From an uncultured Pseudomonadota bacterium (GTDB lineage: Bacteria > Myxococcota_A > Bradymonadia > Bradymonadales > Bradymonadaceae): DNA of 40,604 nt. The position numbers and the translations under genes are program-made. Every line of letters begins with the position of its first letter. Positions within the stretch are counted from its first letter, which is position 1. Of the stretch, positions 54-24,706 are shown piece after piece. Below the pieces are notes generated by a model, which did not search any database, was not told the origin of the DNA, and saw only the letters and a program-made list of their open reading frames with translations. The stretch spans positions 1-40,604 of the forward strand of contig CATLTV010000025.1 in the NCBI GenBank assembly GCA_950059285.1, written 5' to 3'.

Positions 54-1194
54 TCAGTCGTCAGAACCTGCCACGGGTTCCATGGATTCGCCGCTACCAA
101 GCTTGAGCAAGTAAGCCACGATGAAGTCATCCAGATCGCCGTCTAACACCTTGTCCACATTGTTCACGGTGTGACCTGTACGCAGATCCTTGATTTGCTT
201 GTAAGGGTGGAGCACGTAGGAACGAATCTGAGAGCCAAATGCAACCTCGCGCTGTTCCGAATACTCCTGACTTGCTGCGTCTTCCCTTGCCTGTAACTCA
301 AGATCGTACAACCTGGACTTGAGCATCTTCATGGCTGTTGCACGGTTCTTGATCTGGGAGCGTTCATTCTGACATTGCACCACGATGCCCGTGGGGATGT
401 GTGTCATACGCACAGCAGAATCAGTACGGTTAACGTGCTGACCACCCGCACCACTGGCACGGTACGTGTCGATGCGAAGGTCGCTGTCATTGATTTCAAT
501 GTCGATGTTGTCATCGACCTCTGGCACGACCTTCACCGCAGCAAAACTTGTCTCACGACGTTGCTTACCATAAGGACTAATACGCACCAGTCGATGCACA
601 CCATTTTCCGCCTTGAGGAAGCCATAGACGTTCTTGCCCGAGACATGCAGCGTGGCGCTCTTGATGCCCGCCTCTTGACCTGATTGAAGATCGTTCTCCT
701 CAACCTTCCAGCCCTTGGCATGGCAGTAACGTGTGTACATACGAAGCAACATCTCAGCCCAGTCCTGACTGTCTGTGCCACCTGCACCTGAGTTGACCGA
801 GATGAACGCGCTGGACTTGTCGTGATCACCGCCAAGCATACGTTGGGTCTCAAGCTCAACCACAGCAGCTTCGACCTGCTCGATCTGCTCGGCTGCCTCG
901 GCCATCGCAAGTTCGCCTTCTTCACCCTCCTCGGTCAGACCCATCTCTACAAAGAGTTCGGCCTCCTCAAGTGAGGTGGATTGCTTCTCCAATGACTCCA
1001 GAATCTCGACGAGTTCGCCGCGCTCCTGCATGATTTTCTGTGCGCGGTCAGCATCATCCCAAAAGTCTGGGGCCTGGCTGATCGCATCAATTTCCTGAAT
1101 CCTTGCCTCCTTTTGAGGCAAGTCAAAGATGCCTCCGGAGTTCTTGAACTCGAGCAGTCAGGTCACTTATTTTTCCACGGACATCTTCCAACAT
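54..1194 (-). CDS. prfB: Peptide chain release factor 2 (RF2), programmed +1 frameshift
   Basis: RF2 recognises UGA and UAA stop codons in the ribosomal A site and triggers release of the finished protein. The catalytic GGQ motif is seen in GAGGQHVNRTDS, and the family signature NSGAGGTDSQDWAEM is present. The stop-recognition tripeptide reads SPY (in RISPYGKQRR) where E. coli RF2 has SPF. The gene starts at the ATG at 1194, behind an AGGAG ribosome site. Twenty-three codons are read to CTT, then an in-frame TGA (1125-1123) follows; skipping one T gives GAC and opens the main frame. The slip site CTTTGAC is preceded by a Shine-Dalgarno-like CGGAGG, the classic autoregulatory RF2 arrangement: scarce RF2 lets the ribosome pause and shift. 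The full product is about 379 residues, slightly longer than usual because of a short acidic C-terminal tail. Confidence 0.95.
1123..1136 (-). promoter_or_regulatory. RF2 programmed frameshift site
   Basis: Read on the minus strand, codons CGG AGG CAT CTT are followed by an in-frame TGA and then C. CTTTGAC is the known RF2 shift heptamer, and the upstream CGGAGG can pair with the 3' end of 16S rRNA to push the ribosome +1. Both halves of the gene match RF2 only if the shift takes place. Confidence 0.9.
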
Positions 1195-1465
1195 AAATGT
1201 TTACTCCTAAAACAATAACTTGACATACACCATGCCAGCATCTGGCTGAACATGAGCTTTTATGCTTTGCATCCTTGCCATTGTCGGGCTAAAAAAATCA
1301 ACTGTAATCTCTTATCAACACTTGAAATCGGCCTGACAAGGCGGGTAATCTACCGACCCCCAGTAGAGCATGTCAATCACACGACATGGGGAACACTTTT
1401 TTACAACACCGCAACCTCAGGGCTTCATCCCTGATCGTGTTGTGCACAAGGACAGTTATAACTAC

Positions 1466-2377
1466 ATGCGTCACACACAACTCATGTCAACGACATCCAT
1501 CTTCACATCCGCACTCCTTACAATGGGAATCATCCTCGTGACACATCAGGAAGGGTTTGCACAGGACACCGCTGAAAACCAGCCCACCGAGGAGCAGTAC
1601 AAGCTTTATCAGCGTGCTCAACAAGCCTACGAAGATGAAAACTACACCAACGCCATCGCTCTACTTGAGACAGCCAACACCATCCAGCCCTATGACCTCT
1701 TCATGTACAACATCGCCCGATCACACTATCGGCTTGGGCAAAGCATCGAGGCCAAAACAGCTTATGAAAAAGCAAAAAACCTGACGCGACTTGGCCCAAG
1801 CCTCACAGTCCAGATCCGCGAAGGACTTGAAGAGCTTGCGCTTACCTGTGAGGGCACCGTAACCATCACCTGTAAAACGCCTCAAAGCACCACCATCCAT
1901 GTGGACAATCAACCTGATATTGCCTGCACTCTGGCTCAACCCATGGCCCTGAAACCTGGTATGCACTCGCTGATTGCAAAGCTCGATACTCAGGTTGAAA
2001 CCATCAGCTTTGAAATCAAGGGCATGGAAACGACCAAAGTATCAACCACCTTGCAACCGCTCCCCGAGCAGGTCCGCTTTGCGTCCACCACCTGGGGGAA
2101 ACGCCTCTCTCTTGGTGGAGGTATTTTAATTGGTAGCGCGCTTGTACTGGACCAGACGCTGGTGCGAAGCCGTAAAAGCAATTACATCAGCGCCAATGAA
2201 AACTCACTTCAGACCAAAGACATCTTGACGGCCAAGCGCAAACTACGCAGAAGCCAGGCGCTCACCCTCTCCACCGCAGCACTTGGTGCTGTATCGCTCT
2301 CGCTGGGAGGCACATTGTGGTTCAGAGCACGTCATCAAGATGACACCACAGAAGTTTCCATTCTCACTGAGTTCTAG
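1466..2377 (+). CDS. Secreted or membrane-anchored TPR protein with PEGA-like domain
   Basis: The open frame begins at 1370, but the ATG at 1466 gives a normal signal peptide (MRHTQLMSTTSIFTSALLT... ending near GFAQD) and has an AAGGA about 13 bases upstream, so it is preferred; the product is then 303 residues. After the signal come about two TPR-like helical repeats (EEQYKLYQRAQQAYEDENYTN, then IARSHYRLGQSIEAKTAYEKA). A beta-rich segment follows (GTVTITCKTPQSTTIHVDNQ) that resembles PEGA-type domains. Two hydrophobic stretches near the C-terminus could be membrane segments. This architecture is common in myxobacterial-type genomes, where such proteins sit in the envelope and probably bind partner proteins. 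No enzyme motif is seen. It is divergent from prfB and upstream of two lipoproteins. Confidence 0.75.
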   Translation: MRHTQLMSTTSIFTSALLTMGIILVTHQEGFAQDTAENQPTEEQYKLYQRAQQAYEDENYTNAIALLETANTIQPYDLFMYNIARSHYRLGQSIEAKTAYEKAKNLTRLGPSLTVQIREGLEELALTCEGTVTITCKTPQSTTIHVDNQPDIACTLAQPMALKPGMHSLIAKLDTQVETISFEIKGMETTKVSTTLQPLPEQVRFASTTWGKRLSLGGGILIGSALVLDQTLVRSRKSNYISANENSLQTKDILTAKRKLRRSQALTLSTAALGAVSLSLGGTLWFRARHQDDTTEVSILTEF

Positions 2378-2494
2378 AACGCGATAAATCACAGAGAAGA
2401 ATCACAGGTAACCCGAGAGCCTTCTTCTTTATTAAATTTTCCCACGCACAGTGCATTGCTCTGCTCCAAGCACACGATTCGTCACGAGCCATTG

Positions 2495-4333
2495 ATGAAC
2501 ACATCCATACACCACATCGCATCTTGCGGCTTACTCGCCATGCTTCTGCTCGCCATGTCAGGATGTCAGAGCATCAGCGGTTTTGCGCCCTACTGCCAGA
2601 GCGATGACGACTGCCAGTCACATCAATTCTGCGATACCGATGAAAACGCCTGTTTTGTCAGAGAAGCGTATAGTACGAGCTGTGATCCTGACCTGCTCTT
2701 TCCAGATTGCCCCGCTGCAACCACATGCGATGAGACCGCAAAGATATGCATACCGCGCACGTTTCGCGCTGCATTCATCTACCCCTTTAACACCTCGGTC
2801 TATGGACGCAGGCAGTATGCCAATATGCTCAGATTTCTGACCGAATCCGTGTCAAAGCAGCTCTTCGAGCCACTTGATTGTAAAGAGTCCTCTGAAGACG
2901 CACAAAAAGCACACATTGTGTACACATGCACAGGTCAAGACATTGAATTTCTCTTCATCAATTCAGGGGATGACGAGGAACAAACGGCCCAGAATATTTC
3001 AGATGCATATAAATTTGCGCCCTTTGATATCACACTCCCAGGAAGATCGATTGAGTATGCCTACACTGTACCCTTCCTGGAACAAAACCAGGCCAACCTA
3101 TTCACCCTTGGCCGAAGCAATCTTAACCTTGACTATGTCTCAAAAGAGCTTGAACCAGATTACAAATACCCTTCACTCGAAACACGCTTTGACTTCTCAC
3201 TTAAAACTTTCTCACTCAACCCAACCTACTGGTCATTTGTTATGGAAGAGCTTGAATGTGAAAGGCCCTTAACACTTTCATACAACGTGGGAATCGAAAA
3301 CTTAACCCAACACAAACAGGAAGAACTCTGGGCAAAACATGGCACATGCCTGGATCGCATTACTCTGGAAGATAGCTCCTCTGTAGAATGGGTCGATACA
3401 ATTACAGAAAAGGATATTGATTGCCTACTCATCAGCGGGTTTGTTGACGCCAATCAAATATATGATCTGCTATCAACGTATACACAGTCTTCACGGTACA
3501 CCAAATCCCCCAGGATAAAGTGGTTAACACATAAGTATTTGGTAGATGAATCTTCTGCTATCACGCAAAACTTAAGGGACATCATCCTCAGCTCTTTTCG
3601 CGAAGATATGTTCTTTATCTCAGGAGAAATATCCAGCTCACCAAAATACAACAGCTTTGCAGCTCAACTTGAAAAAGATTACAAGACTTATCTTGATAAG
3701 CGAAGTTGCCTGAACACACCCCAGAGGGGGTGTGACTCGCTCACATGCGATGCACCTTCCTCCCCCATTGAGGAGGACGCCTGTGCACAACTTAACTGTC
3801 CAGCTACACCAAACTGCCTGGAGTTAGGTTGTCTCGTCTCCAACCCTCCAGAATGGTGTAATCTCATTCAATGCGAATCTACTCGAAACTGCGACTATTA
3901 CGAACCAAATCAGCTCTACACAATCTCATTTGATATATCCTCAATCATTACACAAATAAGCACCTCATGGCTGCTATTTTACAAAGTTCGAGCCCGTCAA
4001 AACACATCTCAAATGCCAATGAGCAGAGAAGCGCTGCGCGATTCTTTTTTGGAGATCATGGGCCACAAAGAATCGGACCATTCTTGCATATTTCCAGACT
4101 TGACATCATGCGAATTACTCTCAGCTCAACAGAAAAAATACAGTTACACCAATATTTTCCCCATGACGATCAACCCAGATGCACGCATCTCAACAAACCA
4201 GAATACGACCACACTATACTCACAAGTAAACTCAGCCTTTGAGTTCTTACCCCCAACACAAAGCTACTCCTATCAAGACGCCGAGGAACTCAATAATCGA
4301 CCTGCTGTTGAACCTGCACCAGAGTGTAACTGA
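2495..4333 (+). CDS. Large lipoprotein, possibly periplasmic-binding-protein-like (first of a tandem pair)
   Basis: The start chosen is ATG 2495 (MNTSIHHIASCG), which gives a proper lipoprotein signal ending in LLAMSGC; the open frame extends back to 2456. The product is 612 residues. Behind the lipid-attachment cysteine lies a short cysteine-rich module (APYCQSDDDCQSHQFCDTDENAC), then RAAFIYPFNTSVYGRRQYAN and an alternating alpha/beta pattern that is reminiscent of type-1 periplasmic ligand-binding proteins. This fold assignment is an inference from pattern only. A second cysteine-rich block (CDSLTCDAP ... NCLELGC) lies near residue 415-460. The downstream gene is a full-length paralog starting three bases after this stop, so the two are almost certainly co-transcribed and translationally coupled. 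Ligand unknown. Confidence 0.8.
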   Translation: MNTSIHHIASCGLLAMLLLAMSGCQSISGFAPYCQSDDDCQSHQFCDTDENACFVREAYSTSCDPDLLFPDCPAATTCDETAKICIPRTFRAAFIYPFNTSVYGRRQYANMLRFLTESVSKQLFEPLDCKESSEDAQKAHIVYTCTGQDIEFLFINSGDDEEQTAQNISDAYKFAPFDITLPGRSIEYAYTVPFLEQNQANLFTLGRSNLNLDYVSKELEPDYKYPSLETRFDFSLKTFSLNPTYWSFVMEELECERPLTLSYNVGIENLTQHKQEELWAKHGTCLDRITLEDSSSVEWVDTITEKDIDCLLISGFVDANQIYDLLSTYTQSSRYTKSPRIKWLTHKYLVDESSAITQNLRDIILSSFREDMFFISGEISSSPKYNSFAAQLEKDYKTYLDKRSCLNTPQRGCDSLTCDAPSSPIEEDACAQLNCPATPNCLELGCLVSNPPEWCNLIQCESTRNCDYYEPNQLYTISFDISSIITQISTSWLLFYKVRARQNTSQMPMSREALRDSFLEIMGHKESDHSCIFPDLTSCELLSAQQKKYSYTNIFPMTINPDARISTNQNTTTLYSQVNSAFEFLPPTQSYSYQDAEELNNRPAVEPAPECN

Positions 4334-4336
4334 TCT

Positions 4337-6226
4337 ATGGATAACCACTCGATAAAAAAGCTCGCCATTTTCACCACTGCTCTATCTGCCATGCTCCTGC
4401 TCGCCATGTCAGGATGCCAGAGTATCAGCGGTTTTGCGCCCTACTGCCAGAGCGATGACGACTGCCAGTCGCATCAATTCTGCGATACCGATGAAAACGC
4501 CTGTTTTATCAAATCATCCTACAATCAGGAGTGCGATCCCTCCCAAGAATACGACACATGCCCTGTCGCCACCGAATGCAACGCAGACGCGCAAGCCTGT
4601 CTACCCCGCAAGTTCCGTGTCGCCTGGATGTTCAGCATGAACTCCCCAAGATATGAACGCCGACAGGTCACCAATAACCTCAAATTCCTCACCGAGCGCA
4701 TCTCGGCACAATACTTCTCACCACTCAATTGCGCCACACCTTCCACGACAGAACAACAAGCCAACATCATCTACCGTTGCGATAACGATCAAATTGAGTT
4801 CCTCTTCATTGACTCAGGCGATGATGCCTCCACACAGCAACAAGAGCTCTCCAAAGCATTGCGCCTTAAACCTGTGGACATGTTGCTGACATACTTCTCA
4901 TCAGGCTATGCAGGAGCATATGACCTCAACGCTCAGGCAGGGCTTGATTACTTGCTCATTGGACGCCTCAACAGAAGAGCTGATCGCGTCAAGGAAGAGC
5001 TCCAAAAAGACTACCAATACCCCGAACTTGATGAACGTTTTGATTTCTCCTTGGGAGGGCTAAGAAGCACAATTACAAACAGCGCCTACATGTCCTCTCC
5101 ACTTGAATGCCAACGCCCCCTCGTGATCCATGAGGATAATCAACCGTACACGCTTGATAGAATTATCATGCAGCAAGAGAGTCAACAGTTTGGCCTCTGC
5201 CTGGACTACCTCACCATTCCTGGCGATGCTCGCGCAAGCTATGCTGACGAAGTTCAAATTATCGCCGAAAATAACTATGACTGCATCTACACAGGCACCA
5301 TTATCACCCCGGACAAACTCTCCACATTGTTGCAAGATTATCGAAACTCCACACACTACAACGAACATCCAGCACACTGGATCTTCCAACGCTCGTTTGT
5401 GGAATCGACCAATGAGTTAGAGTCAGGTCTACGCACCATTATCAGTGAAAACTTCCTTGATCATGTCAGCCTGAAAGCACAGCAAAGCATCAATGTGGAC
5501 TACAACGGTCTTCAAGCTCGCCTGGAGAAGGACTACCGTGAACTCCTTCAGGCTCAAGGCTGCCTGGGGGTTCCAAATGTAAGCTGTGAGGATCTTAACT
5601 GTACGGACTCATCACAGACAGACGAAGCAGCGCTCTGCAACCAGCTTGGATGCGCCACCACACAAAGCGCATTAACCTGCCTTGAGCTTGGATGTCTTGC
5701 CCCCTCAGCGCCCAGCTATTGTGCCAATCTTGAGTGTGACATCCCACTGAGCCAGTGTGATTTCCTCCCCCCTAATATTTTTGAGCTCGAACCCAACACA
5801 ATCACAACCATTGCAGAGCCTATATTCGTCGCCTGGCTACTCTACTTGCAACAGCAGCATACACAACAAAACCAGGACGCTCCGCTCTCAAGGGCTCAGC
5901 TCAGAGATCTGTTTTTGGAGCTCGCCAATCCCGATCATGTCGCATGCAAAATCTCTGACATCACGGCATGCACAACCAACATCGCAAACTCAAAACAAAT
6001 CCACTTTTCTGGCATCAACAGGGACTTTGTCCTCGGAGTTGATGGACGCCTGATAGGCTCAACACACACCATTGAGTTCTACAAACCAAACTCAAACCTC
6101 GAGTTTGGTGCCCCCATCAAGAGCTACACACCTCAAGAACAAAACGCACTTAGTAACTACCAGATCATGCCCGAAGTCTCATGCCCAGAGGTAGACGCAC
6201 AAATCGCGGAAGCGCTCATGGAATAG
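4337..6226 (+). CDS. Large lipoprotein, paralog of the preceding gene
   Basis: The product is 629 residues with a lipoprotein signal ending LLAMSGC and the same cysteine-rich module as its neighbour. Shared landmarks through the full length include a RRQxxNxLxFLTE segment, FLFIDSGDD (FLFINSGDD in the neighbour), ERFDFSL, LEKDY, CLELGC and a final SYxxxExxxLxN region, so the pair arose by tandem duplication. Most of the two proteins has diverged strongly, but the first ~124 bases around the lipobox and cysteine module are about 96% identical in DNA. The predicted location is outer-membrane or periplasmic lipid-anchored. A ligand-binding role like the type-1 periplasmic binding proteins is possible but unproven. 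It converges on a membrane histidine kinase, which might suggest a sensing partnership, though nothing in the sequence proves it. Confidence 0.8.
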   Translation: MDNHSIKKLAIFTTALSAMLLLAMSGCQSISGFAPYCQSDDDCQSHQFCDTDENACFIKSSYNQECDPSQEYDTCPVATECNADAQACLPRKFRVAWMFSMNSPRYERRQVTNNLKFLTERISAQYFSPLNCATPSTTEQQANIIYRCDNDQIEFLFIDSGDDASTQQQELSKALRLKPVDMLLTYFSSGYAGAYDLNAQAGLDYLLIGRLNRRADRVKEELQKDYQYPELDERFDFSLGGLRSTITNSAYMSSPLECQRPLVIHEDNQPYTLDRIIMQQESQQFGLCLDYLTIPGDARASYADEVQIIAENNYDCIYTGTIITPDKLSTLLQDYRNSTHYNEHPAHWIFQRSFVESTNELESGLRTIISENFLDHVSLKAQQSINVDYNGLQARLEKDYRELLQAQGCLGVPNVSCEDLNCTDSSQTDEAALCNQLGCATTQSALTCLELGCLAPSAPSYCANLECDIPLSQCDFLPPNIFELEPNTITTIAEPIFVAWLLYLQQQHTQQNQDAPLSRAQLRDLFLELANPDHVACKISDITACTTNIANSKQIHFSGINRDFVLGVDGRLIGSTHTIEFYKPNSNLEFGAPIKSYTPQEQNALSNYQIMPEVSCPEVDAQIAEALME

Positions 6227-6298: not shown

Positions 6299-7681
6299 TT
6301 ATGAAACCAGGAGGGTCACAGGCATCTTGATACAGAAGGTTGTCCCCTCTCCAGGCACGCTCTCAAACTCCACATCAAGCTCAAGCAACTCGGCAAAGTG
6401 CTTCACCAGAGAGAGCCCAAGTCCTGCTCCGTCCTGCGCGCGAGTGGATGAGTTGTCCACCTGTGAAAACGGCTCAAAGATGATGTGGTGATGAGACGCA
6501 TCGATCCCTGGACCATGGTCAATCACTTCAAGCACTGCGTGCGTATCGCCCTCACGCACCGGGTGTAGTACGACCTTGATAAGCTTGTCTTCAGGCGTAA
6601 ACTTACATGCATTATCAATGAGCTTATCAAGCAAGCCCATGAAACTTGGCAAGTGTGTACTGATATGTCGCTGATTCCAGTACGGATCGACCTCAAGCAC
6701 AATCGTCCGCTCAAAACCAAACACTAACCGCTCCAACTCCTTCTCAAGGATAAATGGGGCGACCTCAACCTCGATCTCTCCCACCTCAAACTGCGTCAAC
6801 GCAAGAATGTCGTGAAGCATCTGCACGAGGCTGCGACCCGAACGCTGAATCAGCTCAAATTCCTTGTTGTACTCCTGGTTCCCCTCATCCTCCAACTCCT
6901 CCTGAATCATCTCTGAATAACCAAGAATGGCATTCAAGGGAGTCCTGAGCTCATGGCTCATATTGGCGAGGAACCTGTCCTTGATTTGACTGGCAAGAAT
7001 CGCCGCATCACGTGCGCTGGCAAGATCCTCGTTGCGTTGCTGGAGAATCTTCTCGTTTTGCTGCAAACGGTCCACAACCCAGTGATAATGCATATTGAGC
7101 ACGTACACAAAGCCTGTCAATGCACAGAGGAAGATGAGGCTATTACCAAGATCAACGAGTGGATACTCTTCGTCGGAAAACACCTGCATCGCAGTCAAGA
7201 CACCACTATCAAACAGGAAGAAGAAGACAACTGGCGTCACCAGCGCAATCGTCAACCACAGCATCGCAAGGTAACGCTTGCTTGAAAAAATCCCCAAAAA
7301 AGGAAGGACAATAAGCCACTTCACAGTATAAGAGGAGACCCCACCAAGCACCATAAAGCCTGAAGCCGTTGCACCAAACAAGGCAAGCCCAATCAGGTTT
7401 GTTGCCAGAGACATCGACCCCACAAACCGTAGCACAAATACTGAAGCAAACGCCAATGCGCCAAAGCTCAGGGTCAAAAAACCCAGACCATAATGCCCAT
7501 CTCTGAAGTAAGGAAACGCCACAAAAGGAACGGCAGCACAGAAGGTCATGGAGCTAAGCATATAGATCTTGGCCCTCATCTTGACGATATCATCCTTCAA
7601 CAACTTGGGATGTAACCAGCCAGATGTTCGCTCATGCTCAACAAACCGCTGTAAAATCGGCTTTTTCTGTGATTTCGTCAC
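6299..7681 (-). CDS. Orphan membrane-bound sensor histidine kinase
   Basis: The start is GTG at 7681 with a weak AAGG upstream. The protein has 460 residues: about 33 cytoplasmic residues, about six membrane helices (roughly 35-200), a short coiled coil (VDRLQQNEKILQQRNEDL), then the kinase core. The H-box reads FLANMSHELRTPLNAIL with the phospho-acceptor at H243. The ATPase domain has the N-box (LIDNACKFTPED), G1 (VIDHGPGID) and G2 (GAGLGLSLVKHFAELL). It should autophosphorylate and pass phosphate to a response regulator, but none is encoded nearby, hence orphan. There is no obvious extracellular sensor domain, so the signal may be read by the membrane helices themselves. A good promoter with an overlapping inverted repeat lies upstream. 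Confidence 0.92.
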   Translation of the reverse strand: MTKSQKKPILQRFVEHERTSGWLHPKLLKDDIVKMRAKIYMLSSMTFCAAVPFVAFPYFRDGHYGLGFLTLSFGALAFASVFVLRFVGSMSLATNLIGLALFGATASGFMVLGGVSSYTVKWLIVLPFLGIFSSKRYLAMLWLTIALVTPVVFFFLFDSGVLTAMQVFSDEEYPLVDLGNSLIFLCALTGFVYVLNMHYHWVVDRLQQNEKILQQRNEDLASARDAAILASQIKDRFLANMSHELRTPLNAILGYSEMIQEELEDEGNQEYNKEFELIQRSGRSLVQMLHDILALTQFEVGEIEVEVAPFILEKELERLVFGFERTIVLEVDPYWNQRHISTHLPSFMGLLDKLIDNACKFTPEDKLIKVVLHPVREGDTHAVLEVIDHGPGIDASHHHIIFEPFSQVDNSSTRAQDGAGLGLSLVKHFAELLELDVEFESVPGEGTTFCIKMPVTLLVS

Positions 7682-7919: not shown

Positions 7920-7981
7920 GGCCGCGCATGGAAAACAGATGACACTACCTATTTATTTACACCATTGTGCTGAGAGGTATC

Positions 7982-9106
7982 ATGACCAGCAAGAAGAAGA
8001 AGGTTGATATTGAGTCGTTACAGCGTCCCTCCGTGGAAATGCTGTATGCCGATGAAATAGCGCTCCTTATAAAACAAGACAAAGACAAGCCCAAACCCAT
8101 GGGCTGGCAAATGACACCTGATTCGGTCGTGAAGTTTGTGTTGGGTGACAAGAAACTTGATCTCAAACCCAAGTTTGTGGGTACACGCCGTTTCATTGAG
8201 CGCTGTGTCGTGGCACTTGCCACCAACAGGGGCCTGATGCTGATCGGTGAGCCTGGTACTGCAAAGTCCTACCTCAGCGAGATCTTCACCGCTGCTATCA
8301 GTGGCGACTCCACACTCATCGTTCAAGGTAGCGCAGGTACCACCGAGGATGACATCAAGTACTCCTGGAACTACGCGTTGCTCCTGTCACAAGGACCAAC
8401 ACCTGCGTCCATGGTCCCTGCACCGCTTCACGATGGTATGAGTCAGGGTAAACTCGTTCGCTTTGAAGAGATCACACGCTGTCCTCTTGAAATTCAGGAT
8501 ACGCTCCTCTCCATTCTCAGTGACCGTGTAATGACCATCCCCGAATTTGAAGAGAGTGAAAAGACACTCTATGCACAGGCAGGCTTTAACGTCATCGCCA
8601 CAGCAAACACACGTGACCGTGGCGTGAACGAAATGAGCGCCGCGTTGAAACGTCGCTTCAACTTTGAAACGGTCCACCCCATACAAAACCTCAAGCAAGA
8701 ACGCGCCCTTGTCCAGAACGAGATGCAGCGTCGCCTTGACCGCGCTGGCATTCCCGTTCGCTTCAGCGACGATGCCACCGAACTCCTCGTCACCACGTTC
8801 CACGAGTTACGCCAGGGAAAGACGATGGGCGGGCAAGCCATTGAGAAGATGAGTACTGTCATGAGTACGGCCGAAGCTGTCGAGGTCGGTTACGCATCCA
8901 GCTTGCACGCCTACTACTTTGGAGCCTCAAGCGTCAAACCTGACCACCTCGTCGACAACCTCATTGGAGCTGCGCTCAAAGAGAATGAGGATGACCTGAA
9001 AAAACTACGTCTCTACTTCAACCAAGTTGTCAAGGGACGCAAGGGTGACCACTGGCAAGCTTATTACAAGGCGAGCAAAGGTAGCCTTGGTACAGATAAG
9101 TCATGA
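7982..9106 (+). CDS. MoxR-type AAA+ ATPase
   Basis: ATG 7982 (MTSKKKKVDIES) is preferred over an upstream in-frame GTG at 7967 because GAGAGG sits just before it; the product is 374 residues. The Walker A motif is GEPGTAKSYL (K95), the Walker B ends in RFEE (E162-E163), sensor 1 is in IATANTRDRG (N209), and ALKRRFNFE carries likely arginine fingers. MoxR ATPases form hexameric rings that remodel partner proteins, usually together with a VWA-domain protein encoded next to them. That partner is the next gene here. The enzyme is cytoplasmic. A 15-bp inverted repeat follows the stop codon, so expression of the downstream genes may be reduced or partly independent. Confidence 0.9.
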   Translation: MTSKKKKVDIESLQRPSVEMLYADEIALLIKQDKDKPKPMGWQMTPDSVVKFVLGDKKLDLKPKFVGTRRFIERCVVALATNRGLMLIGEPGTAKSYLSEIFTAAISGDSTLIVQGSAGTTEDDIKYSWNYALLLSQGPTPASMVPAPLHDGMSQGKLVRFEEITRCPLEIQDTLLSILSDRVMTIPEFEESEKTLYAQAGFNVIATANTRDRGVNEMSAALKRRFNFETVHPIQNLKQERALVQNEMQRRLDRAGIPVRFSDDATELLVTTFHELRQGKTMGGQAIEKMSTVMSTAEAVEVGYASSLHAYYFGASSVKPDHLVDNLIGAALKENEDDLKKLRLYFNQVVKGRKGDHWQAYYKASKGSLGTDKS

Positions 9107-9126
9107 TGACTCTGTCATGATTACTG

Positions 9127-9157
9127 GATGCGGGCATCACAGTGTGATGCCCGCATC
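9127..9157. terminator. Inverted repeat after the AAA+ gene
   Basis: Two perfect 15-base arms (9127-9141 and 9143-9157) flank a single base. The stem is GC-rich, but no T-run follows on the plus strand. It lies inside the gap between the ATPase and its presumed VWA partner, so it is either a partial terminator or an mRNA-stabilising hairpin that sets gene ratios. Confidence 0.5.
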
Positions 9158-9219
9158 TCCCACACTGTTCACATCTTTCATTACCGATTACCCACTTCTA
9201 TTCTGGAGCAACAAGCACC

Positions 9220-12200
9220 ATGGAACCAATCCTCGATACATTGATCCAGCGTGAGGATAGTCTACGCGTACGCTTTTTTCCCGTTCGTCACTACAGCCCC
9301 ACAAGTGCGCGAATGCTTCACGAGGTCGCAAAACAAATCAACCCTGTCGCGATCTTGATCGAGGGTCCATCTGACTATAACGAGCAGATAGAAGAGTTCT
9401 ACCTTGAGCACGAGCTCCCCATCGCGCTCTTCTCTTACGTGCGTTACTCCGATAGCACACGCGACCGCGCGTTCTACCCCTTTTGCGAGTTTTCTCCCGA
9501 ATGGCAAGCGCTCCAGATCGCCAGAGAACGCAACATCCCCGCGCGATTCATTGATAAGCCATGGTATGAAATCGATCGCGAAACATCCCCGCAAAAGCAC
9601 CGCTACGCCGATCGTAAGTTTGATAAAAACGCCTATATCGACGCCCTGTGTGAGCGCCTTGAGGTCGAAGACTTTGACGAAGTCTGGGACGTCCTCTTTG
9701 AACTCGACGCCAGCATCGACGCAGACACCTACCTTGATCGTGCCTATCACTTTGTATACCAGCTCCGTTACACAGATAACGAAGCATCCTACAAAGACCG
9801 ACAGCGCGAAGAGTTCATGGCCGATCGCATCCGTGAGGCTCTTGAAGAACACCCCGAAGGCATGATCCTCGTGGTCACGGGTGGATACCACACACCAGCC
9901 CTCAATGCGCGTCTACGCAACCTCCCACTTGATGATCTCTTTGCACACGGCGAACTCATTGAAGATGCTGAATATGAAGAGGAATCCGCCGAGGCAGGAC
10001 AACCCATCCTGTTTGACCAGGAAGGCAACCCCATTGACCCCGAGCTTGCCGCCGAAATCCTCGCACAGCAACAACCACCGCCCAAAGAAATCATCGATCA
10101 TGGCATCACCATGACACCCTTCACCTACGATCGCATCGACCGCATGAGCGGCTATCAATCAGGTGTACATGGCCCCGCTTTTTACGAATATGTCTGGCGC
10201 AGTCGTAACAACGGAGAGCTCCTTGATGGACGAGAGCTCCTCTATAATATCATCGGTAAACTGCGCACCAAGGGACAGGTCCTCTCAACCTCCGATGCCA
10301 TTGCGGTAGAAACCACAGCATGGGCGCTCGCCAATATGCGTGGCCGCCAGGAGCTCTGGCGTTACGACCTCCTTGATGCACTCAACGCCGCTGTCATCAA
10401 GGAAGAAACCGATGCCGAATACGAACACCCCGTGATTCGTGTCGCCCGTGAGGTCTTCTGTGGTGAAAAAATAGGACTCCTTGGTGACGGCACAGACCTC
10501 CCTCCCCTGGTCCGCAATACGCGAAAACAACTCCACGACCTTGGACTCACTCCCACGGAAAAAAAGAAGGTCGCCAAACTTGAACTCCTCAAGCCTGAAG
10601 ACCTCCAGAAGTCTCAGATCCTTCACCGCTGTCGTACACTCGGAATTACTGGCTTTACAAACACACATGCCACCGATCTCGTGAACCGTGATGACCTCTC
10701 AAACCCAGAAGAAACCTGGGAAATCATCTGGTCTCCAGAACATGAAGCCAAGCTCATTGAGAACGCTATCTATGGTGCAGACCTCGCCGAGGCCGCCACA
10801 GCAAAGCTCCTTGAAGATGCACAGGCCATCTCACGTGACGCTGAAAAAGCAGCCCTCGTCGTGATTGATGCCACACTCATGGGACTTCACGCCTCGACCG
10901 AGGAACTCTATGAACGCCTGTTAGAAATTGTGGGTGAAGACCCTGACTTCTTCCACCTCACTTCGGCGCTCAACCACTTGCTGTACCTCTATGCCTTTGA
11001 TGATGTCTTTGGCGGAAAAACCGCCAACAACATCCCTCAAATCCTTGGCACATCGTTCAATCGTGCACTCTGGCTCTTTGAGAGCCTTGGACACATCGTG
11101 GACCGCGACAAGGAGCTTATTAAAGCCATTGGCGCCCTCTTCTACACCTTCCAGCGCTGCGAGCACGAACCCTTCACGGATCGTGACGAATTCATTGGTC
11201 TTTTTGGACGAATTGGTCGCAATGATGACCAGATGCCTCTGATTCGAGGGGCAACGCTTGGCGCGCTGTTCTCACTGGCAGAAAGTGACATGGACGAGAT
11301 CCTCACGGTCATGAACTACTTCTCTGACCCCATGGAACTTGGTGACTTCCTGATCGGTTTCTTTAGCCTCGCACGTGAAGCCGCTCAGCGCGATCCTCGC
11401 TTGCTTGAAAAGCTCAATGACATGATCATGAACCTGAATGAAGAGCAGTTCTGGGAAGTCTTGCCAGGCTTGCGACTCGCCTTCACATTCTTCACGCCGC
11501 GTGAAAAGCATCGCCTGATCGATATGCTCTTTCCACGAAATGCTCCTGGTGATGGTGAAGAAGATGAACTCGCAGGCATGCCTTTTGTGGATGCTCTCAC
11601 CTTTGATCATGCCCAAAATCTCACCGCGCGCCTTCTCGAAACTATCGAGAAATACCACCTGCGCAGCCTGCGCAAACAACCTCAGATCGACAGCCCTGCA
11701 AGCGACGAGTTTAACCAGCCCCAACAACCACCCCTGCCAGGTGAATCACCTGATGCTCAACCTCAGGATTCACAATGTGATGGCTCCGGGGGACAGCAAG
11801 GTCAACAAGGTCGGCAAGGCACAAGCGGCAAACAAGGTCAATCTGGTCAACAAGGAGAGCAAGGAGAGCAAGGAGAGCAAGGAGAACAGAACGCTCAATC
11901 CCTTGACGCTCAACAACAAGCAAACGCTCCTCGTACAGGCCAACCCCAACCCACAGAGGGGGCAGGATCGACTGAAACTGCTGCCAACGCCTCTCAGAAA
12001 GAAGGAACGGACGCTTCCAGCGATGACGGCACACCTCAGGGCTCATCCTCCTCAGCGGGCGCTTCTGGTGGTGGTTCTTCGCAACATGCACCCTCACAAT
12101 CAAGTCAAGGAAGCGCCGCAGGCGCCGGGCAAGAGGCCGCAGATCCTGATTTTCAGGGAGGCTCCACGCCTGCTGAAGACACGCAAAACTTGCCCTCACC

Positions 12201-13347
12201 TTATACTGCCGAGGAGCGCATGCAGCGCTGGAAGGTTGTGCTTGGTGTAGGTGGTGAAGACCTCCCTTGCCAACTCCCTCAAAGCTGGCAAGAACGTGAA
12301 AACCTCGTCAGTTACCTCTACGACCGCGAGTATGGTCAGGGCCGAAATGTACGTGGCCAGGGCGGTGGTAGCGGTCAAGGTGGTCGTGAAGGAGGATCTG
12401 GCCAGAGCTCGCTCTCTGTACCGGACTGGATCAATGGTGTGCACACACTCTTCCCACAGCGTGTCATTGAGCGCCTCGAAAAAGATGCGCTGGACCGCTA
12501 CAACATTGAGGAGCTTGTCACCCGCCCTGAGCTGCTTGAAAAGGCTGAGCCCAACATCACCTTGATGAAGGCTGTGCTGCGCACCAAACACCTCATGGAC
12601 CCACAGGTCTTGCAGCTAGCCAAGAACCTCGTCAAAAAGGTCGTGCAAGAGCTCGTTGAAAAGCTCGCGCGCACCATCAGCACACCCTTTGCTGGCTCCA
12701 TCGACAGACGTCGCCGCAGCTTTATGAAGATCGCAAAGAACTTCTCTGCACCTGAAACCATTCGTCGTAACCTCAAAAACTATGATCCTGAACACAAACA
12801 GATCATCATTCAAGACCCCTACTTCTTCTCCCGTATTCGCCGACAGGTTGATCGCTGGCAGATGATCATCGTCGTTGATGAATCTGGCTCCATGATGGAC
12901 TCGGTGATTTACTCCGCCGTAAGCGCTTCTATTTTCTGGGGAATCAAGGCACTTAAAACACACCTCATCATCTTTGACACCGAGGTTGTCGATCTGACAA
13001 GCGAGTGCTCCGATCCTGTTGAAACATTGATGAAAGTTCAACTCGGCGGCGGTACGGATATCGCCAAGGCGGTACGCTACGCACAAACCCTGATTGAAAA
13101 CCCTCGACGCACAATCCTTGTCCTTGTCACAGACTTCTATGAGGGCGGCAACCCTGCTGACCTCGTCCAGGCAACCAAGGAAATCTGCGAAGGTGGTACC
13201 ACGTTCCTTGGACTCGCAGCTTTGGACGATCGCGCCAACCCCACGTATGACAAGAACCTTGCGCAAAACATGGTCAATGTCGGGGCTCAGGTCGGCGCAA
13301 TGACTCCAGGCGAACTCGCAGCATGGGTCGCCGAGAAAGTCCGCTAA
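9220..13347 (+). CDS. DUF5682-like region fused to a C-terminal VWA domain
   Basis: The product is 1375 residues, cytoplasmic, with no signal peptide. The N-terminal ~240 residues contain FFPVRHYSP (H24), ILIEGPSDY (E48) and VVTGGYHTPAL (H224), the pattern I associate with DUF5682 and, more loosely, with the ChaN/EreA/TraB-like fold. A long helical region follows to about residue 820. Next is a low-complexity linker (about 825-985) that includes eleven collagen-like Gly-X-Y triplets, then a helical part, and finally a VWA domain from about 1210. The VWA metal site is complete: DESGSM (D1220-S1224), GGGTD (1276-1280) and VTDF (D1305). In other bacteria the DUF5682 and VWA parts are, to my knowledge, usually separate neighbouring genes; here they are one protein. 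The likely partner of the MoxR ATPase just upstream; the biological target is unknown. Confidence 0.85.
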   Translation: MEPILDTLIQREDSLRVRFFPVRHYSPTSARMLHEVAKQINPVAILIEGPSDYNEQIEEFYLEHELPIALFSYVRYSDSTRDRAFYPFCEFSPEWQALQIARERNIPARFIDKPWYEIDRETSPQKHRYADRKFDKNAYIDALCERLEVEDFDEVWDVLFELDASIDADTYLDRAYHFVYQLRYTDNEASYKDRQREEFMADRIREALEEHPEGMILVVTGGYHTPALNARLRNLPLDDLFAHGELIEDAEYEEESAEAGQPILFDQEGNPIDPELAAEILAQQQPPPKEIIDHGITMTPFTYDRIDRMSGYQSGVHGPAFYEYVWRSRNNGELLDGRELLYNIIGKLRTKGQVLSTSDAIAVETTAWALANMRGRQELWRYDLLDALNAAVIKEETDAEYEHPVIRVAREVFCGEKIGLLGDGTDLPPLVRNTRKQLHDLGLTPTEKKKVAKLELLKPEDLQKSQILHRCRTLGITGFTNTHATDLVNRDDLSNPEETWEIIWSPEHEAKLIENAIYGADLAEAATAKLLEDAQAISRDAEKAALVVIDATLMGLHASTEELYERLLEIVGEDPDFFHLTSALNHLLYLYAFDDVFGGKTANNIPQILGTSFNRALWLFESLGHIVDRDKELIKAIGALFYTFQRCEHEPFTDRDEFIGLFGRIGRNDDQMPLIRGATLGALFSLAESDMDEILTVMNYFSDPMELGDFLIGFFSLAREAAQRDPRLLEKLNDMIMNLNEEQFWEVLPGLRLAFTFFTPREKHRLIDMLFPRNAPGDGEEDELAGMPFVDALTFDHAQNLTARLLETIEKYHLRSLRKQPQIDSPASDEFNQPQQPPLPGESPDAQPQDSQCDGSGGQQGQQGRQGTSGKQGQSGQQGEQGEQGEQGEQNAQSLDAQQQANAPRTGQPQPTEGAGSTETAANASQKEGTDASSDDGTPQGSSSSAGASGGGSSQHAPSQSSQGSAAGAGQEAADPDFQGGSTPAEDTQNLPSPYTAEERMQRWKVVLGVGGEDLPCQLPQSWQERENLVSYLYDREYGQGRNVRGQGGGSGQGGREGGSGQSSLSVPDWINGVHTLFPQRVIERLEKDALDRYNIEELVTRPELLEKAEPNITLMKAVLRTKHLMDPQVLQLAKNLVKKVVQELVEKLARTISTPFAGSIDRRRRSFMKIAKNFSAPETIRRNLKNYDPEHKQIIIQDPYFFSRIRRQVDRWQMIIVVDESGSMMDSVIYSAVSASIFWGIKALKTHLIIFDTEVVDLTSECSDPVETLMKVQLGGGTDIAKAVRYAQTLIENPRRTILVLVTDFYEGGNPADLVQATKEICEGGTTFLGLAALDDRANPTYDKNLAQNMVNVGAQVGAMTPGELAAWVAEKVR
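11791..11889 (+). repeat. Collagen-like Gly-X-Y triplet run inside the VWA fusion gene
   Basis: Residues 858-890 are eleven uninterrupted Gly-X-Y triplets (GQQ, GQQ, GRQ, GTS, GKQ, GQS, GQQ, then GEQ four times). At DNA level the last four are near-perfect copies of the 9-mer CAAGGAGAG (11851-11886), which suggests recent slippage expansion. Confidence 0.85.
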
Positions 13348-13401
13348 GCAGTTCAATCAACACAGCAATTACCACCTTTTTATATTCGTGAGATCAAGCA
13401 C

Positions 13402-15462
13402 ATGCGCCAAGATTTACTTGTACTGACAGCAGAAGACCTCGCCACAATCAGCAACCGTGGTACGGTCAAACGCGCCACAAAAGAACTCTCCAAGGGAAAT
13501 GTTCAGGTCGAGATCGAAGAGCTTGAAGGCAATGGCCTCAGGTTCACATGGAGCGATGATGTCATCTGCACCTTTGCTCAGGATGTCGTCGTCAAGGACG
13601 CCGAATGCACTTGCCCTGCTACTGGCATGTGCCGCCACATCATCAGGTCTGTCCTCTCGTACCAGGAGTGGGCTGTGGAGCATACGTCTTCAGGTCCAGA
13701 GGCGACACAGGGTGAGGACGCTCCCCCTACAGAAGAAATCATCAGCGCTGATGAACTCAAGCCCTGGAACCCTGGTGACTTCACCGACGAACAAATCGCC
13801 AAGGAGTTCAACGCCACCAAACTTCGCAAGGCCAGGAAGATGTATCGCGATGGCCTCGTGACAGAACTCTTACGCAGCACAAAACCTCAGGCACGCTTCC
13901 ACAAACTCGGACACACCCTGCGTTTTCAAGTCCCCAATGACTTCCGCTACTCACGCTGTGACTGTGCAGAAGAAGCGCCATGCATTCACGTCCCACTCGC
14001 CATCTGGGCATTCCGCGAGCTGAACAGCGAACAACGCGCTGGCTTTGTCACCACCGCAGCGAGTGAAGAACCTCGCGCAGATGACCTCCTTGATGCCACG
14101 GAAGACAAGCTCGTTGAACTCCTTCAACACGGCTTTACTGGCACGCCCAAAGCTGCCTTTGACAGGTTCAAACAACTTGAACACCAGCTCCACGAAACAG
14201 AGTTCGTCTGGCCCGCCACAATCCTCCAGGATATTCGACAACAATACGACTATTACAGCGACCACGATGCGCGATTCAGCCCCATCTATGTCGCCGATCT
14301 TATTGGAGAATTCCTCATCAGAAGCGACGCACTTCGCGCTGATGATGTCCCCATCCCAAGGCTCTTCATTCGCGGCAGCGTCGATGATACCAAGAGCAAG
14401 CTTGGACAAACCCGCCTCGTGGGACTTGGCTGCACAGTCATCCATCGCAAACGCTCCGTGATCATTCAGGCGCTCCTCCAGGACTCCGCCACGGGCAAGG
14501 TGATGGCGCTTGGTAACGAATTCAAAAACCCTGAAGATGACGCGGTCATCCCCCCATCGTTTAGCGAGCTTGGAAAAAAACTCCTCGTCAAAGGCCGCGA
14601 TATCGCCTCTCTTGGCTCGGGTCAGCTCGTCCTGAAAAAGGCCGATCTTCACCCCGATCACCATATTGAACTGGGACGCTCCCCTGCCTCGGCTTACCCA
14701 CAGAACTTCGCATGGGAACAGTTGCCATCACCTGTGTTTGTCGAAGACTTCGACGAAGTCCGCGCCCGACTTGCAACGCTCCCCCCCGCATCACTGCGTC
14801 CTCGCCGCGTCGGTGAAGACTTCCACGTCGTCCCCATTGCAAAAGTCGAAAACGCAAGCTTCTCCGTGCGTGACCAGGCTGTCATCGCCACCCTCGTCGA
14901 TCAACTTGGTAACACGGCACACCTCCAACACCCCTACACCAACCGCAACAGGTCTGGCACAGAGCGTCTGCTTGCCAACCTCACGCGAAACCCTGAACAG
15001 ATATGTTTTGTCGCTGGCAACATGCATGTGGGCGCACATGGACTGGTCATCCAACCCACTGCTGTGGTCTTCAAATCAGAAGACGATCCTGATAACCGCT
15101 ACATGATCCAGCCCTGGATCGACGAGTTTGGAGAACGCGAAGCAAGTGACACACAACTTGGTAACGCCAGACCTCCTCTTGATCCTATTGATGTGTTCCG
15201 CTCAGAGCTTGCCAACGCACTGGGCGAGCTCTTCCTGCTCGGGCTCAACCATGTGGACTCCAATGTCTACGCACAATGGAAGAAGCTCTATCACTATGGC
15301 CTGAAACTCGGCATGCATGATGTCCTCGCACCTGTCGCGGATGTCGTCAGTCTCCTTGATCCCGAGGTGAAACTCCCCATGGAAATGCGCTCGATAGAGG
15401 CCCAGGCAAAGCCAGTCATGGAAGCAAGCGTGGTGAGTCGATTGATTCAGGAACTTGCCTAA
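13402..15462 (+). CDS. Protein with two SWIM zinc fingers
   Basis: The product is 686 residues and cytoplasmic. Two SWIM-type zinc fingers with identical spacing are visible: C69-x-C71-x5-C77-x-H79 (CTCPATGMCRH) and C186-x-C188-x5-C194-x-H196 (CDCAEEAPCIH). SWIM fingers bind DNA or proteins. The remaining ~490 residues are mixed alpha/beta without a motif I recognise. The gene starts 54 bases after the VWA fusion stop on the same strand and so very likely belongs to the same transcript. MoxR ATPase, VWA protein, DUF5682 protein and SWIM protein form a recurrent gene neighbourhood in bacteria, as far as I know without an assigned function. The gene ends in a long bidirectional palindromic terminator. 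Confidence 0.85.
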   Translation: MRQDLLVLTAEDLATISNRGTVKRATKELSKGNVQVEIEELEGNGLRFTWSDDVICTFAQDVVVKDAECTCPATGMCRHIIRSVLSYQEWAVEHTSSGPEATQGEDAPPTEEIISADELKPWNPGDFTDEQIAKEFNATKLRKARKMYRDGLVTELLRSTKPQARFHKLGHTLRFQVPNDFRYSRCDCAEEAPCIHVPLAIWAFRELNSEQRAGFVTTAASEEPRADDLLDATEDKLVELLQHGFTGTPKAAFDRFKQLEHQLHETEFVWPATILQDIRQQYDYYSDHDARFSPIYVADLIGEFLIRSDALRADDVPIPRLFIRGSVDDTKSKLGQTRLVGLGCTVIHRKRSVIIQALLQDSATGKVMALGNEFKNPEDDAVIPPSFSELGKKLLVKGRDIASLGSGQLVLKKADLHPDHHIELGRSPASAYPQNFAWEQLPSPVFVEDFDEVRARLATLPPASLRPRRVGEDFHVVPIAKVENASFSVRDQAVIATLVDQLGNTAHLQHPYTNRNRSGTERLLANLTRNPEQICFVAGNMHVGAHGLVIQPTAVVFKSEDDPDNRYMIQPWIDEFGEREASDTQLGNARPPLDPIDVFRSELANALGELFLLGLNHVDSNVYAQWKKLYHYGLKLGMHDVLAPVADVVSLLDPEVKLPMEMRSIEAQAKPVMEASVVSRLIQELA

Positions 15463-15466
15463 TGAC

Positions 15467-15533
15467 GCAGAATGAAGAAGAGGGGGCGGCCAAAAATCGA
15501 AGTTTTTTGGCCGCCCCCTCTTCTTCATTCTGC
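15467..15533. terminator. Long bidirectional palindromic terminator (30-bp arms)
   Basis: Perfect arms 15467-15496 and 15504-15533 flank a 7-base loop. Each side of the loop is an A- or T-run, so both strands read as a GC stem followed by U residues. It lies between converging genes: the left arm begins four bases after the SWIM stop, and the right arm overlaps the last codons of the opposing gene. The inner core GGGGCGGCCAAAAA recurs at 33931-34001. Confidence 0.85.
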
Positions 15534-16751
15534 CGCGTAATAATCTAGCCAGCGACGCTTGACCTTCGCCAACACATCATCGCCCATCGCCTCGGCGTGC
15601 CGCGCCAACACTGAGGAGTGACCACGCGCACAAATCTCGTCGAGCAAACTACTGGCTGCCTCAAAGTCCTCATCTGAGGCATCCAACCACAACGGCAATA
15701 ATCCATGCACGCCATGCTCCGTATTGGACACAATCCAATCACGCGAGGCCCTCGAAAATTGCTTGCGTTCGCTGAGCTTTACAAATCCTCTCACCGCTCG
15801 CCATGAATGAATACGCAGCAGATCCTTGAACACCACAGAGACAAAGCCATCATCGTGCGCCACAACCTGCTCCATCAAACGTGGTACAACCTCAAAGCCA
15901 CCGCGAAGCAACAACGTGGGAATCATCTCCTGTGCAAGATGATAATCCTCAAAACGCTCAAACCACTGCGCAAAATGAGTGCGTTCTTTCAGTAAATGCA
16001 CACAATCACGTACCAGAAAACCTGAACGCTCCTCCATTGTGTACACCCGCTCACACAATGTGCAGGCGACAGCTTCTACATGAAAGCGTTCCAATAAACG
16101 CACCGCTGTGTATGCATCCTCCTCGCTGCGCTCCACTGGAATCAACTCCACATACTGACGCACCAACAACGCGACGCGCTCGTTGACATCATCATCTTCA
16201 GACCACCCCAGATGCACAAAAAAGTGGCGCAGCTCGGAGAGAGGAATCACCTCCCACAATAAACCAAGCACCTCATCAACAGGAAGTAACTCCTTTAATA
16301 ACCTCGAAAAATACGCATAGGAAAACCATCGAACCTCGCGACGCAGTAACGCCTCTTGCTCAAACCATTGCCTGAGCCGCTCTCGCAACATCGTAGCAAG
16401 ATGCTCATCCTCCACTTGCTCAAAGTCCAGCGCGCGTAATGCTTCCACTGCTCGCGACTCCACCTGCGTATCTTCATGACGCAAAGGATGTGTCATCGCC
16501 ATCAACCAGAAGAACGCCTCCTGTTGACTGAGCCCAGAACTCCTCCACAACCAACGTCCCTGCCAGGCACGATCGCTCCAGGGATAAATATCATTCTCAT
16601 CCTGCTCCAGTGGAAGATGCCTCACATACAGATCAAGCGCATCCTCCACCACAAAAGGAGAAACCTCAATCAATCCATCCTCATCCATCACACTTGAGGT
16701 AGACAGACTCTCCTCAACCTCAAAGTCATGATACTCTCTTACCTTAAACAT
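15525..16751 (-). CDS. Hypothetical alpha-helical protein
   Basis: The product is 408 residues, acidic, and rich in Leu, Glu, Arg and Trp, with no signal peptide or membrane segment. The predicted secondary structure from pattern is almost entirely short helices with recurring LL and W positions (for example AWQGRWLWRSS and WLMAMTHPLRH), as in HEAT-like solenoids, but no clean repeat could be defined. No catalytic motif is recognised. It converges on the MoxR/VWA/SWIM set across a shared terminator, so it is not in that transcript; a functional link is only possible. It is divergent from kptA, with a 217-base gap that must hold both promoters. Confidence 0.7.
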   Translation of the reverse strand: MFKVREYHDFEVEESLSTSSVMDEDGLIEVSPFVVEDALDLYVRHLPLEQDENDIYPWSDRAWQGRWLWRSSGLSQQEAFFWLMAMTHPLRHEDTQVESRAVEALRALDFEQVEDEHLATMLRERLRQWFEQEALLRREVRWFSYAYFSRLLKELLPVDEVLGLLWEVIPLSELRHFFVHLGWSEDDDVNERVALLVRQYVELIPVERSEEDAYTAVRLLERFHVEAVACTLCERVYTMEERSGFLVRDCVHLLKERTHFAQWFERFEDYHLAQEMIPTLLLRGGFEVVPRLMEQVVAHDDGFVSVVFKDLLRIHSWRAVRGFVKLSERKQFSRASRDWIVSNTEHGVHGLLPLWLDASDEDFEAASSLLDEICARGHSSVLARHAEAMGDDVLAKVKRRWLDYYAAE

Positions 16752-16968: not shown

Positions 16969-17538
16969 ATGAAGCCTATGCACAAAGAAGAAAAAAGACG
17001 CCTGAGCAAAACCATATCACACGCGCTCAGACACGCCCCTCACCTCTACGAACTTGAACTTGATGACCACGGATGGACACCTGTTGACCACCTCATCGAT
17101 GGATTACACCATCACCGTAAGGCTTGGCGAACAGTCGATCTGGAGACCATTGAGGAGATCGTCAAGACGGATAGCAAAGGTCGTTATGAACTCGACCTCA
17201 AAACATCAAAAATCAGAGCACTTTACGGGCACTCCACCACGAGCAAACTCATCAAGGAAGCCGCCACACCTCCCGAGATCCTGTTCCACGGCACATCTCC
17301 TGCGACAGCCAAGCTGATCATGGAGCAAGGACTTCGACCCATGTCACGACAGTTTGTCCATCACTCTGTCGACACGGCCACGGCAAAGGAAGTTGGACAC
17401 CGCAAGGATGGCAAACCTGTCCTGCTCCATGTACACGCCCACAAGGCACACCTTGCAGGCATCACGTTCTACAAAGGAAACGCGCTCATCTGGCTCTCTG
17501 ACCCCGTCCCACCCGAGTTTATATCACTAGCACCCTGA
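16969..17538 (+). CDS. kptA: RNA 2'-phosphotransferase (Tpt1/KptA family)
   Basis: The product is 189 residues, the normal family size. Tpt1/KptA enzymes remove an internal RNA 2'-phosphate by transferring it to NAD+, giving ADP-ribose 1'',2''-cyclic phosphate and nicotinamide. The N-terminal signature KTISHALRHAP carries R21 and H22, the NAD+-binding FHGTSP carries H107, and GLRPMSRQFVHHS carries R127 and H131, which fits the family's Arg-His-Arg active-site set. The usual QGHS segment reads YGHS here. In yeast the substrate is spliced tRNA; bacteria lack that pathway, so the bacterial target is unknown and may be repaired or damaged RNA. The start has a GGAG site eight bases upstream. Confidence 0.92.
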   Translation: MKPMHKEEKRRLSKTISHALRHAPHLYELELDDHGWTPVDHLIDGLHHHRKAWRTVDLETIEEIVKTDSKGRYELDLKTSKIRALYGHSTTSKLIKEAATPPEILFHGTSPATAKLIMEQGLRPMSRQFVHHSVDTATAKEVGHRKDGKPVLLHVHAHKAHLAGITFYKGNALIWLSDPVPPEFISLAP

Positions 17539-24671: not shown

Positions 24672-24706
24672 ATCAAAACCAGAGGAATCTATCAGTCCTC
24701 CTCTGG
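24671..24706 (-). terminator. Terminator overlapping the end of the homocysteine methyltransferase gene
   Basis: On the minus strand CCAGAGGA (24706-24699) pairs with TCCTCTGG (24686-24679), followed by TTTTGAT. The left arm lies in the last coding triplets and the stop codon is in the loop. Confidence 0.6.

Follow-up and report, generated by a model that had tools for sequence, protein, structure and literature searches.

What might a bacterium do with a MoxR-type AAA+ ATPase, a protein of 1375 residues that joins a DUF5682 region to a VWA domain, and a protein bearing a pair of SWIM zinc fingers, when the three are encoded side by side? The question is raised by a stretch of 40,604 nucleotides (contig CATLTV010000025.1 of assembly GCA_950059285.1; hereafter the window) from an uncultured bacterium of the family Bradymonadaceae, in which three open reading frames (ORFs), all on the + strand, lie within positions 7982-15462. 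The gene set is already known, though uncharacterised, as yehLMPQ of E. coli, and the fusion is a recurrent variant of it; the main new result is the assignment of the N-terminal domain of DUF5682, which very probably belongs to the TraB/PrgY family and so to the ChaN/EreA/TIKI superfamily.

Gene content and kinship with E. coli yehLMPQ

A first interpretation, made from the letters of the DNA (the sequence-only reading), had proposed a same-strand set of MoxR, DUF5682-VWA and double-SWIM genes, and both the ORFs and the Pfam matches, judged against the curated cut-offs, confirmed it. The first gene (7982..9106, + strand) encodes a YehL-type MoxR AAA+ ATPase of 374 residues, with an AAA_5 match above cut-off (E 2.7e-34) and the P-loop GEPGTAKS at residues 89-96. 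ATG at 7982 is its likelier start codon, the ORF being also open from GTG at 7967, and a search of the PDB returned midasin as its sole match. The second gene (9220..13347, +) encodes the fusion, in which Pfam recognises DUF5682 (E 2.7e-113, residues 38-847) and VWA_CoxE (E 1.3e-46, residues 1149-1370), both above cut-off. Four parts can be delimited along it, all on the + strand: the putative TraB/PrgY-type domain, residues about 17-235 (9268..9924); the remaining DUF5682, residues 236-847 (9925..11760), which the Pfam DUF5682 match covers; a linker rich in Q, G, S and A, residues about 848-998 (11761..12213), placed by composition and by the domain spacing in relatives; and the YehP-like part, residues 999-1375 (12214..13344), with the VWA domain. 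The metal ion-dependent adhesion site of the latter is complete in sequence, as had been claimed (D1220-x-S1222-x-S1224, T1279, D1305). The third gene (13402..15462, +) encodes a YehQ-like protein of 686 residues with two SWIM fingers of the CxCxnCxH type, CTCPATGMCRH at residues 69-79 and CDCAEEAPCIH at 186-196. The Pfam SWIM model finds the first finger alone, weakly and below cut-off (E 0.03), and it recognises both fingers of the homologue YehQ; the motifs and the homology together uphold the claim of two fingers. The PDB search gave no match for the SWIM part or the VWA part.

In E. coli K-12 MG1655, yehL (MoxR), yehM, yehP (VWA) and yehQ (SWIM) are adjacent. The window ATPase is 53% identical to YehL over 355 residues and groups with it in a tree of MoxR proteins (support 96/95); residues 22-812 of the fusion are 29% identical to YehM, itself a DUF5682 protein; residues 1001-1375 are 49% identical to YehP; and the third protein is 26% identical to YehQ (E 2e-41). 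Because of these protein matches the window is read as carrying a yehLMPQ locus in which M and P have become one protein, an identity that, judged by protein comparison, is almost certain. MoxR ATPases are divided into seven recognised subfamilies, and YehL is the name of one of them (PMC3893208). The two loci share the same four parts, in the same order and on a single strand, and YehQ too has double SWIM fingers; they differ in that the window has YehM and YehP as a single protein with a long Q/G/S-rich linker, and in that DUF4132 (YehI) has no match on the window's contig. The literature searched yielded neither a functional study of the yehLMPQ set nor a mention of DUF5682.

The N-terminal domain of DUF5682 and its candidate active site

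Aligned by hhalign with TraB/PrgY profiles, a profile of 38 DUF5682 N-terminal domains reached a probability of 97.5%, and against a TraB set gathered by the TraB model alone it reached 97.6% (E 3.7e-12, 226 columns). The control profiles, TraB reversed and 20 times column-shuffled, gave at most 0.4%, and the MoxR, VWA and SWIM profiles gave 0.1-0.2%. The two halves of the domain match TraB separately and in the correct order (N-terminal 88.5%, C-terminal 95.2%), while for the gumN-type branch of TraB the match is limited to the region of the last motif (24.9%, 33 columns). The weak matches of the DUF5682 model in genomes of the window's phylum are TraB proteins, the same ORFs being found by the TraB model. 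The TraB/PrgY family (Pfam PF01963) is placed in the TIKI superfamily, to which ChaN, Ere and RRSP belong as well. Its alignment with the DUF5682 domain spans some 225 columns and brings the four motifs, His, Glu, Arg-Glu and His, into line: H24 corresponds to the His of GTAH, E48 to the Glu of VEL, R196-E197 to the ER pair and H224 to the His of GAAH. The DUF5682 domain differs from that family in preceding about 600 further DUF5682 residues and a VWA domain. A Pfam scan of the fusion protein gave no TraB match at the threshold used, and the N-domain profile, searched directly against the PDB, gave nothing significant, the best real lead being a TraB chain (E 0.6).

An AlphaFold model of residues 10-245, built from the window sequence and one homologue (L035), has a predicted local distance difference test score (pLDDT) of 71.5, a predicted template modelling score (pTM) of 0.76 and a predicted beta-alpha core; it replaced an earlier model of residues 1-352 with a pLDDT of 55. 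When it was compared by Foldseek with the PDB, TraB family protein chains ranked first (E 0.04, probability 0.89), and among viral structures a TraB family protein again came first (E 7e-4, probability 1.00). Viral contigs were also searched for further DUF5682 homologues, and none was found. The sequence evidence for the TraB relationship is strong and the structural evidence no more than supportive. The ChaN/EreA-like character of the N-terminal domain, a prediction on which the sequence-only reading had been staked, was thereby found in the hhalign match to TraB, and the ranking of the structure searches agrees with it.

Does this domain carry an enzyme's active site? The residues invariant in all 39 DUF5682 proteins compared include H24, E48, E94, D112, R183, R196, E197 and H224 (window numbering), and H24, E48, R196 and H224 align with TraB motifs. 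The conservation earlier claimed for H24, E48 and H224 is therefore complete in this sample, and their proposal as active-site candidates fits the alignment of these positions with the TIKI active site. RRSP, an endopeptidase of the TIKI superfamily, depends for cleavage on two His, two Glu and an Arg close to them (PMC6254334). DUF5682 has both His, the second Glu and the Arg, with a spacing of 28 between R196 and H224 as against 29 between Arg4001 and His4030 of RRSP. The PrgY-type branch of TraB resembles DUF5682 in having no first Glu (GTAH). The conserved set of His, Glu and Arg, even with the first Glu missing, suggests that the site has been kept for a function, probably hydrolysis, and on balance we lean towards regarding the domain as an active hydrolase.

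Some observations weigh against a TIKI-type hydrolase. DUF5682 has nothing that corresponds to the first Glu of RRSP and Ere (RRSP Glu3900, which precedes the His by two residues): its position 22 is V in most of the 39 sequences and never a conserved E, so that the full set of two His and two Glu of Ere and RRSP is absent. A TraB-family domain need not be an enzyme: a ciliate respiratory complex has chains that bear the name TraB family protein. The PDB matches by Foldseek were weak (E 0.04), with a model that came from two sequences.

Recurrence of the set and of the fusion

The DUF5682 model has a match in 64 of 284 genomes of the window's phylum, above the cut-off in 57. Neighbourhoods in this phylum, together with plasmid, phage-collection and E. 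coli records, were searched with profiles of the four parts; near DUF5682, MoxR was present at 45 of 49 loci, VWA at 44 and the SWIM motif at 32, and many of the absences fall at contig ends. The expectation that the four parts would be found together elsewhere was thus borne out. The main layouts are three, and the SWIM protein occurs in all of them. The first, DUF4132 (YehI)-MoxR-DUF5682-VWA-double SWIM, is found in E. coli, Iodobacter and, in slightly altered order, Sinorhizobium; the second, SWIM-DUF5691-MoxR-DUF5682-VWA, in Deinococcus and Hymenobacter; in the third, MoxR and a DUF5682+VWA fusion are followed by a single-SWIM protein, adjoining a protein of about 1600 residues. Records of six named phyla contain the set, namely Pseudomonadota, Bacteroidota, Deinococcota, Actinomycetota, Fusobacteriota and Myxococcota, the genes having been detected by profile in the unannotated records of Actinomycetota and Fusobacteriota.

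Several observations accompany this survey. DUF4132 (YehI) adjoins yehLMPQ in several lineages; it has 15 matches in genome G000 (e.g. L141-L143), and E. coli alone matches among 14 control genomes. A complete MoxR-DUF5682-VWA set lies at 166-4879 of a scaffold from human faeces deposited as unverified 'Bacteriophage sp.' (L119), which is possibly a mislabelled bacterial contig, because it stands close to the Fusobacterium set on the tree. The window's genome also contains a diverged second pair of VWA and MoxR genes (L073, 6856-9478; contig C245) and a DUF5682-like protein of 1021 residues (L074, 99-3179; contig C286), which keeps the motifs HHS, MEL, RERYM and GAIH. These two are probably one cluster split by contig ends, since a locus of another genome (L075) holds all three genes together.

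The natural fusion of 1375 residues announced by the sequence-only reading is an unbroken ORF, and it is common in the window's phylum. DUF5682 and VWA lie in a single ORF at 18 loci, the window included; the same single ORF is borne by a 7410-base contig (L035, identical to L045) of a metagenome-assembled genome recorded as an uncultured Myxococcales bacterium, of the window's family, with 57% identity over residues 1-1375. That YehM and YehP are really separate, and joined here by an error of assembly or gene calling, might be suspected from the low complexity of the linker and from the state of the genome, a draft of 441 contigs. The 1375 codons are nevertheless open without a stop, and the fusion recurs at 17 other loci with linkers of differing length, one of them identical at 57% from end to end, so that an artefact is refuted by recurrence and has next to no probability. 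Linker lengths vary among the fused loci, the window's being the longest seen.

The MoxR tree, with 16 fused and 26 split rows, requires two changes, both forced by strongly supported branches, although such counts do not separate gain from loss of the fusion. The clade with the window's fusion (L035, L046, L048 and L050) groups with split sets of the E. coli type, and the remaining 11 fused rows make up a clade far from it. Because fused loci stand in two separate clades of this tree, YehM and YehP were probably joined at least twice, and two separate fusions would be the simplest reading. Beyond the sequence-only reading, the analysis thus adds the correspondence to E. coli yehLMPQ, the frequency of the fusion in the phylum and, apparently, its two origins. 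Natural fusions of this kind suggest that the VWA adaptor functions as a unit with the enzyme-like part.

Proposed mechanism, competing explanations and setting

The observed gene content, homology to yehLMPQ, TraB/TIKI relationship, conservation of the site, and recurrent linkage and fusion allow a mechanism to be sketched. In MoxR-VWA pairs, the metal site of the VWA protein captures a peptide, and ATP hydrolysis releases the client in a changed state (PMC7159879). In the set described here, the YehL-type MoxR would form an ATP-driven ring, and the VWA part would serve as its co-chaperone, with a peptide or an acidic residue held at the metal site. The TIKI-type domain would cleave peptide or ester bonds by means of H24, E48, R196 and H224. 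Since the VWA domain is covalently tied to the enzyme-like part, MoxR, in hydrolysing ATP, most likely remodels a complex of enzyme and client, the client being either loaded into the TIKI site or released from it. The double SWIM protein would probably be a zinc-dependent module that recruits or recognises the client. A client of peptide type is a tentative guess, which we would sooner doubt than defend. As a whole, a yehLMPQ machine in which a MoxR-VWA motor acts with a TIKI-type hydrolase is the explanation we mildly favour. Two further facts tell against it: no substrate, phenotype or interaction of the set was found in the literature searched, and at three loci (L040, L051 and L070) there is no MoxR beside DUF5682 although sequence is present there. 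Two of these, L040 and L051, are DUF5682+VWA fusions from two genomes of one genus, whose motor may be encoded elsewhere.

The TraB/TIKI-type domain could instead be a non-enzymatic binding scaffold, and the set a dedicated assembly chaperone that matures a specific complex, in the manner of RavA-ViaA or CoxD-CoxE. The window shares with these systems a MoxR AAA+ ATPase and a VWA partner, which is of the CoxE type by Pfam; it differs from them in having the VWA attached to a protein with a TIKI-type domain, and a SWIM partner besides. Such a role would suit the characterised MoxR-VWA pairs, which are assembly or insertion chaperones (PMC7159879; PMC3893208), the TIKI-superfamily domains that have no catalytic residues (PMT; PMC6254334) and the TraB-family proteins that are respiratory complex subunits. 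A dead site would not usually, however, keep H24, E48, R196, E197 and H224 invariant in 39 of 39 divergent sequences, and the equivalent motifs persist in the diverged second copy that the window's genome contains; a scaffold is accordingly an unlikely alternative, though one with some weight. The sequence-only reading had offered a chaperone-like or a defence role, and the chaperone-like part suits a member of the MoxR family. The defence part, in which the set would be an anti-phage or conflict system related to the ternary MoxR-vWA systems that Kaur et al. described in 2020 (PMC7159879), fares worse. Both have the logic of MoxR, VWA and a conserved third component; the P-loop GEPGTAKS fits the GXXXTAKS variant of two of those conflict systems (PMC7159879), which may reflect common ancestry; a bpMoxR model gave a partial match (E 6.7e-5, below cut-off); and a type I restriction gene adjoins the set on one Iodobacter plasmid. 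The core proteins, by contrast, have no meaningful PADLOC match, and PADLOC matches were no richer among 130 flanking proteins than among 117 control proteins of the same phylum, a coarse comparison of family counts by eye. The neighbouring genes are mostly housekeeping, the same parts recur without a variable effector having been seen, and the third component is a TraB-type/DUF5682 protein, the Pfam scan of the core proteins giving DUF5682 and SWIM for it, without VMAP, iSTAND, FtsH or beta-propeller. SWIM, TraB, DUF5682 and the yeh genes are not mentioned in the main text of Kaur et al. 2020 (PMC7159879). Defence is, on these grounds, improbable.

Around the set, the intergenic gaps measure 113 bases between the ATPase and fusion genes and 54 bases between the fusion and SWIM genes. 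The former contains a perfect inverted repeat at 9127..9157 (not assigned to a strand) with 15-base arms, GATGCGGGCATCACA and TGTGATGCCCGCATC, the sole such site in the genome when up to 3 mismatches are allowed; as no T-run follows it, it is perhaps an attenuator or an RNA processing site. The flanking genes are both on the opposite strand and encode a histidine kinase (6299-7681) and a protein with no significant Pfam match (15525-16751). An RNA 2'-phosphotransferase of the Tpt1/KptA family lies downstream on the same strand (16969-17538; Pfam E 3.8e-38), and at 24692-26653 one ORF joins homocysteine S-methyltransferase to methylenetetrahydrofolate reductase. A tandem pair of Cys-containing, probably lipid-anchored proteins (2456-6226) is 38% identical overall; about 40 residues near the N-terminus, signal region included, are identical, which suggests recent gene conversion.

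For the family as a whole, YehM/DUF5682 may represent an unrecognised branch of AAA+-driven TIKI hydrolases, conserved in bacteria as far apart as E. coli, Fusobacteria and Bacteroidetes, in which a MoxR-VWA motor would work on or through a TraB-type hydrolase and the motor's adaptor would on two or more occasions have been joined to the enzyme; we put this forward as a possibility slightly less likely than not. To our knowledge a MoxR-VWA motor acting on a TIKI-type hydrolase, if this proves true, is a combination that has not been described. The placement of the DUF5682 N-terminal domain among TraB/TIKI proteins names the residues to mutate and the type of chemistry to seek. In E. coli K-12, yehL, yehM, yehP and yehQ have so far gone uncharacterised, and this assignment makes the set testable in that organism.

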